52,369 bases of DNA from Bacteroidota bacterium. Lineage in GTDB: Bacteria > Bacteroidota > Bacteroidia > Flavobacteriales > Schleiferiaceae. The stretch lies in NCBI GenBank assembly GCA_016868755.1, contig VGFU01000009.1, positions 1-52,369 on the forward strand, given 5' to 3'. The position numbers were made by a program, and so were the translations under genes. Below are positions 51,761 through 51,792 of the stretch, piece by piece; position 1 is the first letter of the stretch, and each line of letters starts with the position of its first letter. The notes below the pieces were generated by a model. It worked only from the letters and a program-made list of their open reading frames with translations, was not told where the DNA came from and ran no database searches.

Positions 51761-51792
51761 ATAAAAAAGGACTACCTACAAAGATAGTCCTT
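51761..51792 (-). terminator. terminator of the outer-membrane gene, enclosing the gyrB promoter
   Basis: An 8-bp perfect stem AAGGACTA/TAGTCCTT (51785-51792 and 51767-51774) with a 10-nt loop, followed on the minus strand by a T-run. It lies 108 nt after the receptor stop. Confidence 0.8.
51779..51786 (-). promoter_or_regulatory. -7 box TATCTTTG for gyrB
   Basis: A perfect TAnnTTTG match in the loop and inner left arm of the hairpin, 25 nt before the gyrB ATG. No clear -33 TTG. Confidence 0.5.

Follow-up and report, generated by a model that had tools for sequence, protein, structure and literature searches.

The window analysed here, a stretch of 52,369 nucleotides from a flavobacterium-like Bacteroidota bacterium with a small genome (family Schleiferiaceae), carries close to its right-hand end the gene for DNA gyrase subunit B (gyrB), preceded by the truncated remainder of an upstream gene and followed by mdh, all of them read from the minus strand. 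The genes and the signals found in the gaps between them are as follows:

51900 to 52367, minus strand: upstream co-directional gene, C-terminal part, truncated at the contig end
51767 to 51792, minus strand: terminator-like hairpin (computed fold; 11 pairs, 4-nt loop) that includes both the box and the predicted start
51779 to 51786, minus strand: -7 box TATCTTTG of the predicted gyrB promoter, of the form TAnnTTTG and conserved across gyrB loci
51774, minus strand: predicted gyrB transcription start (+1), 5 nt past the box, giving a leader of 21 nt
51761 to 51768, minus strand: T-run TTTTTTAT, whose first two T form the end of the right arm
49813 to 51753, minus strand: gyrB, DNA gyrase subunit B (Pfam), with its ATG at 51753
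49786 to 49793, minus strand: -7 box TACCTTTG upstream of mdh
49764 to 49785, minus strand: terminator-like hairpin AAGGGTCGC-TTCG-GCGGCCCTT in the gap between gyrB and mdh, 9 pairs with a UUCG loop, then TTTT
48815 to 49744, minus strand: mdh, lactate/malate dehydrogenase family (Pfam)

The intergenic gap from the stop of the upstream gene (51900) to the ATG of gyrB (51753) measures 146 nt in the window. Genes were called in a crude manner, as the longest open frames from ATG, and intergenic calls, start codons and distances are therefore approximate. The upstream gene had been labelled a receptor in the original prediction, a label that found no confirmation, as zero Pfam families matched either the copy in the window or the copy in one relative. 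Its C-terminus, with endings such as GLVYKF, lies 123-150 nt 5' of gyrB at 14 of 21 loci of the genus; at the other 7, the window included, the script chose a short spurious frame closer to gyrB. At gathering scores, Rfam recognized five tRNAs in the window and no other known RNA family, and no viral contig was found to encode a gyrB related to this one.

Conservation and spacing indicate that TATCTTTG is almost certainly the gyrB promoter. All 30 loci of a first set have TAnnTTTG just 5' of gyrB, and 15 of 27 further loci have it no more than 100 nt 5' of the gene, which gives 45 of 57 combined; the box is present in all 22 genomes of the genus (gyrB itself occurs in 58 of 60 genomes, G000 included, and upstream DNA covered the 57 loci, that is, 30 plus 27, with the partial gene of G028 omitted). 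A second set, composed of titled loci taken from GTDB genomes, displayed a box within 110 nt of gyrB in 59 of 79 loci, at least 7 of the 79 being genomes also contained in the first set (one of the initial 80 was dropped for its short upstream DNA). The TAnnTTTG box alone is not over-represented in the window, with 13 found against 15.5 expected. In Flavobacterium psychrophilum the same box is located at -12 to -5 (PMC9723704), and by this analogy the gyrB start would fall at 51774, within the right arm of the hairpin, with a leader of 21 nt. Moving the start by up to 2 nt in either direction yields leaders of 19-23 nt; the reported mode is 23 nt in Bacteroides thetaiotaomicron, and the median is 24 in F. 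psychrophilum (PMC9723704, PMC7366714). Inspection of the sequence by eye revealed no TTTG near -33 of the gyrB box; since, according to PMC7366714, F. johnsoniae likewise has no identifiable -33 motif, this element was not taken as defining a sigma-A (ABfr) promoter. No second TAnnTTTG was found between the upstream gene and gyrB, and a conserved block is located about 50-70 nt 5' of the gyrB box.

The same intergenic region holds two sequences resembling DnaA boxes, TTATCAACA and TTTTCAACA on the plus strand (51835-51855), upstream of gyrB and with their starts 12 nt apart; allowing one variant base, all 22 genomes of the genus have both matches within 150 nt 5' of the gene. A replication origin at gyrB was considered and rejected, as the GC skew displays no switch there in G013, G002 or G009; in G002 its sign changes about 20 kb from gyrB.

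The original prediction had placed the -7 box inside a terminator hairpin at 51761-51792, and this was borne out, with the box at 51786..51779 and the hairpin AAGGACTATCT-TTGT-AGGTAGTCCTT at 51792..51767 of the minus strand. In the 11-pair fold, bases 1-5 of the box belong to the left arm and its last three to the 4-nt loop; in an alternative drawing, with 8 Watson-Crick pairs and a 10-nt loop, the box contributes the two loop-proximal bases of the left arm along with part of the loop. As in intrinsic terminators, a stable stem is directly followed by a T-run, and the 56-nt stretch around the hairpin folds at -16.3 kcal/mol (z -2.39), a value equalled by 3 of 200 shuffles. With a terminator finder written for this analysis, no further terminator-like site was detected at a threshold of -4 kcal/mol in a 152-nt stretch covering the 146-nt gap between the genes. 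Because the predicted start lies in the right arm, an RNA initiated there would be unable to fold the hairpin, and an RNA derived from upstream would be able to do so; computed folding energies are -14.7 kcal/mol for the read-through RNA versus -1.7 to -1.8 kcal/mol for the gyrB RNA. The earlier claim that the gyrB RNA would escape the hairpin thus holds, in computed folding, for any start within 2 nt of the predicted one.

The distribution of this hairpin is much narrower than that of the box. Among the 22 genomes of the genus, it is strong in two (G000, -14.1 kcal/mol; G002, -15.6 kcal/mol) and weaker in four close relatives (G011, -7.3; G020, -8.7; G001 and G018, -7.9 each), which display a T-run of 4-5; the stem is kept in these 6, in 4 of them in the weaker form, and not beyond. 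Of the 16 genomes in which the spanning hairpin is absent, 11 lack any terminator-like site over 150 nt, and the other 5 have weak candidates only (-6.4 to -8.9), located 33-99 nt 5' of the box. A count of pairs in 5 of the 6 hairpin genomes showed 54 of 55 cells paired, compared with 38-55% in slid controls; across these 5 genomes, 6 of the 11 pairs are invariant, 4 vary on one side and 1 varies on both. Support from this count for the gyrB stem appears mild, since 53 of 500 shuffles matched the paired percentage; 344 of 500 matched the count of pairs in which both sides are changed. An arm-swap test, for which the groups were assigned by hand, gave P values of 0.003 over all 30 loci and 0.033 within the genus, of 0.18 within the genus minus group A (G000 and G002) and 0.32 minus both hairpin groups, and of 0.31 in other genera. 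A hairpin coevolving across the whole genus, which had been the impression by eye, was rejected, as the swap test fails once the window's group is removed. Judged from these comparisons, the stem is a trait of one sub-lineage, and the promoter is old.

At other gyrB loci, the two signals are usually kept apart. A wider set yielded 21 terminator-like sites near gyrB, of which 3 belong to loci that lack a box; among the 18 sites with a box, 14 are upstream of it (8 of these end less than 30 nt away), 3 lie downstream and 1 extends across it, this sole spanning case being L186, the same locus as that of G002, the window's sister lineage. Terminator-then-promoter is the commoner order, with the two sometimes almost touching: the hairpin of G032 extends from -35 to -1 relative to the box, one base between them and its tail running into the box, and that of G029 extends from -34 to -17, with 17 bases between. 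In the gyrB sets compared, the spanning layout was seen in no other lineage, being confined to the 6 of 22 genus genomes. In three other Bacteroidota loci (L232, L236 and L264), a terminator-like hairpin is located 18-41 nt downstream of the gyrB box, counted from the first base of the box; the gyrB RNA would contain these hairpins, which are possible attenuators.

The same layout had been claimed for mdh, and here the claim stands in part: box and hairpin are adjacent, but the box is outside the hairpin and only touches its left arm. With the start predicted at 49781, in the left arm, the mdh RNA would retain a stem whose energy ranges from -13.0 to -2.5 kcal/mol as the start is shifted by up to 2 nt, and for this reason the mdh site is intermediate between the gyrB layout and an ampC-like layout, in which the gene's own RNA is attenuated. 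Across 21 loci of the genus, the gap between gyrB and mdh holds box and hairpin in 8 (L001, L003-L009), the box alone in 7 (L010-L016) and neither in 6; one pair of the mdh hairpin is changed on both sides, from G-C to A-T, between two groups.

The original prediction further proposed a genome-wide check for enrichment of boxes in terminators, and such enrichment was not shown. In a sample of 852 kb (the window plus L032-L051 and L102-L121) there are 119 intergenic terminators, 107 of them outside the window, and 21 boxes lie on the same strand no more than about 100 nt away from these, evenly spread at 0-3 per 20-nt bin. Boxes within 20 nt of the hairpin centre amount to 6 of 21 on the same strand versus 0 of 7 on the opposite strand, and 3 of the 7 boxes listed within 30 nt of terminators belong to the window. 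In a smaller sample of 452 kb, 6 of 16 boxes had been located within a terminator hairpin or its tail or had abutted one, with 3 of the 6 in the window, a signal that the 852 kb did not strengthen. When 97 promoter-like boxes of the 852 kb were examined for hairpins spanning the start, 5 were found at or below -6 kcal/mol (1.75 expected), 4 at or below -8 (0.85 expected) and 3 at or below -14, against 0.13 expected from shuffled flanks; the last three are gyrB and mdh, both sites of the original prediction, and one site with the ATG in the hairpin. The corresponding numbers outside the window are 3, 2 and 1, the latter being the site with the ATG in the hairpin. A search of the whole genome for a box followed by 4-26 nt and TTTTT returned 51 rows, compared with 17 for the reversed pattern; the former correspond to 38 distinct sites, with a spanning hairpin at or below -6 in 6 and at or below -12 in 3, namely gyrB, mdh and one site with the ATG in the right arm. 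In relatives, overlaps at or below -8 were found for 1 of 26 boxes in G013, 0 of 14 in G009 and 2 of 10 in G002 (gyrB and mdh), and four more genomes, at 100 kb each, gave zero overlaps in 42 boxes. These tests give no support to promoters within terminators as a general rule in this genome; gyrB and mdh stand as two local cases.

Elsewhere in the window, at 37525-37566 of the minus strand, a 15-pair terminator-like hairpin follows an OmpA/TPR/LysM gene, and its T-tract is itself a box, TATTTTTG, placed 5 nt before the ATG of a gene with an AIRS domain; this site is probably a terminator tail and a leaderless promoter in one. A looser case is located at L110 16801-16828.

The position of boxes relative to start codons displays a pattern of its own. 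In the 852 kb, 121 TAnnTTTG boxes have a called ATG no more than 60 nt away, and the spacing between the end of the box and the ATG follows a sharply bimodal distribution, with 54 at 3-7 nt (26 at 4 and 16 at 5), 14 at 8-14 nt, 52 at 15-52 nt and 1 at 1 nt; the reversed-motif control gave 7 in all, none of them at 3-7 nt. If +1 is 5 nt past the box, an ATG at distance 4 would start the RNA. The share at 3-7 nt is 15/31, 4/11, 5/14 and 3/11 in four further members of the genus, and 3/14, 0/4 and 2/13 in three genomes outside it. From this spacing, leaderless mRNAs are predicted to be a major class in the genus; for comparison, 5.5% are reported to be leaderless in F. psychrophilum, and about 3.7% to have leaders shorter than 10 nt in B. 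thetaiotaomicron (PMC9723704, PMC7366714).

With the sequences, the conservation of the box and the computed difference in folding as the observations to be explained, the gyrB locus is best accounted for by an ancient sigma-A-type promoter (TAnnTTTG) that, in one sub-lineage, would be overlapped by an intrinsic terminator for upstream transcription. A read-through RNA, having both arms, would fold the hairpin and end at the T-run; an RNA initiated at the box would begin within the right arm, lack the left arm and continue into gyrB. To this lineage-specific overlap, in which the promoter would be self-immune by geometry, we assign a probability of about 0.55. We infer both termination at the hairpin and any benefit that the overlap may bring. 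The overlap is best seen as a recent local compaction of the terminator-then-promoter order, and not as a dedicated or widespread device; that other lineages also put hairpins near this promoter was counted in favor of this explanation.

Several other readings were weighed. A tentative one, clearly less probable and still of substance, is that the box is the promoter and the hairpin an incidental palindrome causing little or no termination, so that the upstream transcript would end by Rho or read through. The 16 of 22 genus genomes without a spanning hairpin, the loss of significance in the swap test without the window's own group, and the lack of a clear genome-wide preference of boxes for terminators all agree with an incidental hairpin; however, shuffled flanks seldom give a spanning hairpin of this strength with a T-run (0.13 expected per 97 boxes at or below -14), and pairs have been maintained over five variable positions in the sub-lineage. 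It is unlikely that the dyad acts as a repressor operator over -7/+1, or as a supercoiling-sensitive cruciform in gyrase autoregulation. Gyrase promoters respond to supercoiling, which would fit such a role, as would a dyad symmetry centered on the -7/+1 region of a gyrase gene, but the arms vary among close relatives, and both versions leave the T-run unaccounted for. Furthermore, the 22-bp dyad has no second copy within 6 substitutions in 852 kb other than one imperfect match, at L119, and with this single further match a family of operators was rejected.

Marginally less likely again is an attenuator of gyrB itself, in which some transcripts would start farther upstream and be terminated here under regulation. 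The conserved block 5' of the box and the hairpins downstream of the box at three other gyrB loci are consistent with attenuation, and it is opposed by the lack of a second TAnnTTTG between the genes and by an expected start within the hairpin. We consider highly improbable, and the least likely of all, the idea that terminated polymerases slide back and restart at the gyrB box, by which the overlap would recycle polymerase and couple gyrB initiation to the neighboring gene; it was entertained because a terminated polymerase would stop some 6-13 bp past the predicted gyrB start, and recycling after intrinsic termination is the topic of PMC6978380 and PMC7957599.

Known systems share parts of the proposed promoter-terminator overlap. 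The frd terminator/ampC attenuator of Escherichia coli (Grundstrom and Jaurin, 1982, cited in PMC11838884 and PMC6045580) resembles the gyrB site in that an operon's terminator overlaps the control region of the co-directional gene that follows; it differs in that the ampC promoter is within the last frd gene, and the terminator is contained in the ampC RNA and attenuates ampC. At gyrB, the predicted start is inside the hairpin and the RNA should escape, and it is the mdh site that comes closer to the ampC layout. Similarly, the nlpD1 terminator precedes penA as an upstream terminator precedes gyrB, with an adjacent promoter transcribing into the next gene (PMC6045580); there, however, the promoter arises by mutation just 5' of the terminator, whereas at gyrB the promoter would be ancient and the terminator newer. 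With the sigma-A (ABfr) promoters of Bacteroidota, described with TAnnTTTG at -12 to -5 (PMC9723704, PMC7366714), the gyrB promoter shares the box, its spacing to the ATG and the leader length, and it differs in the missing -33 TTTG. Among the titles and abstract openings returned by searches of open-licence literature, none describes a TAnnTTTG promoter inside a terminator stem.

At the gyrB site the individual components are ordinary and their overlap is unusual: a terminator-like hairpin of apparently recent origin lies across an ancient promoter, placed such that RNA from that promoter should escape it. It constitutes a clear natural candidate for two opposed signals carried on the same bases and distinguished solely by where the RNA starts, and it sits at an essential gene, with close relatives both having and lacking the hairpin; if true, it would provide a compact part for tandem gene designs. 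The leaderless mRNAs predicted here as a large class could outweigh the gyrB overlap in importance, the two mapped members of the phylum having leaders on most of their mRNAs.
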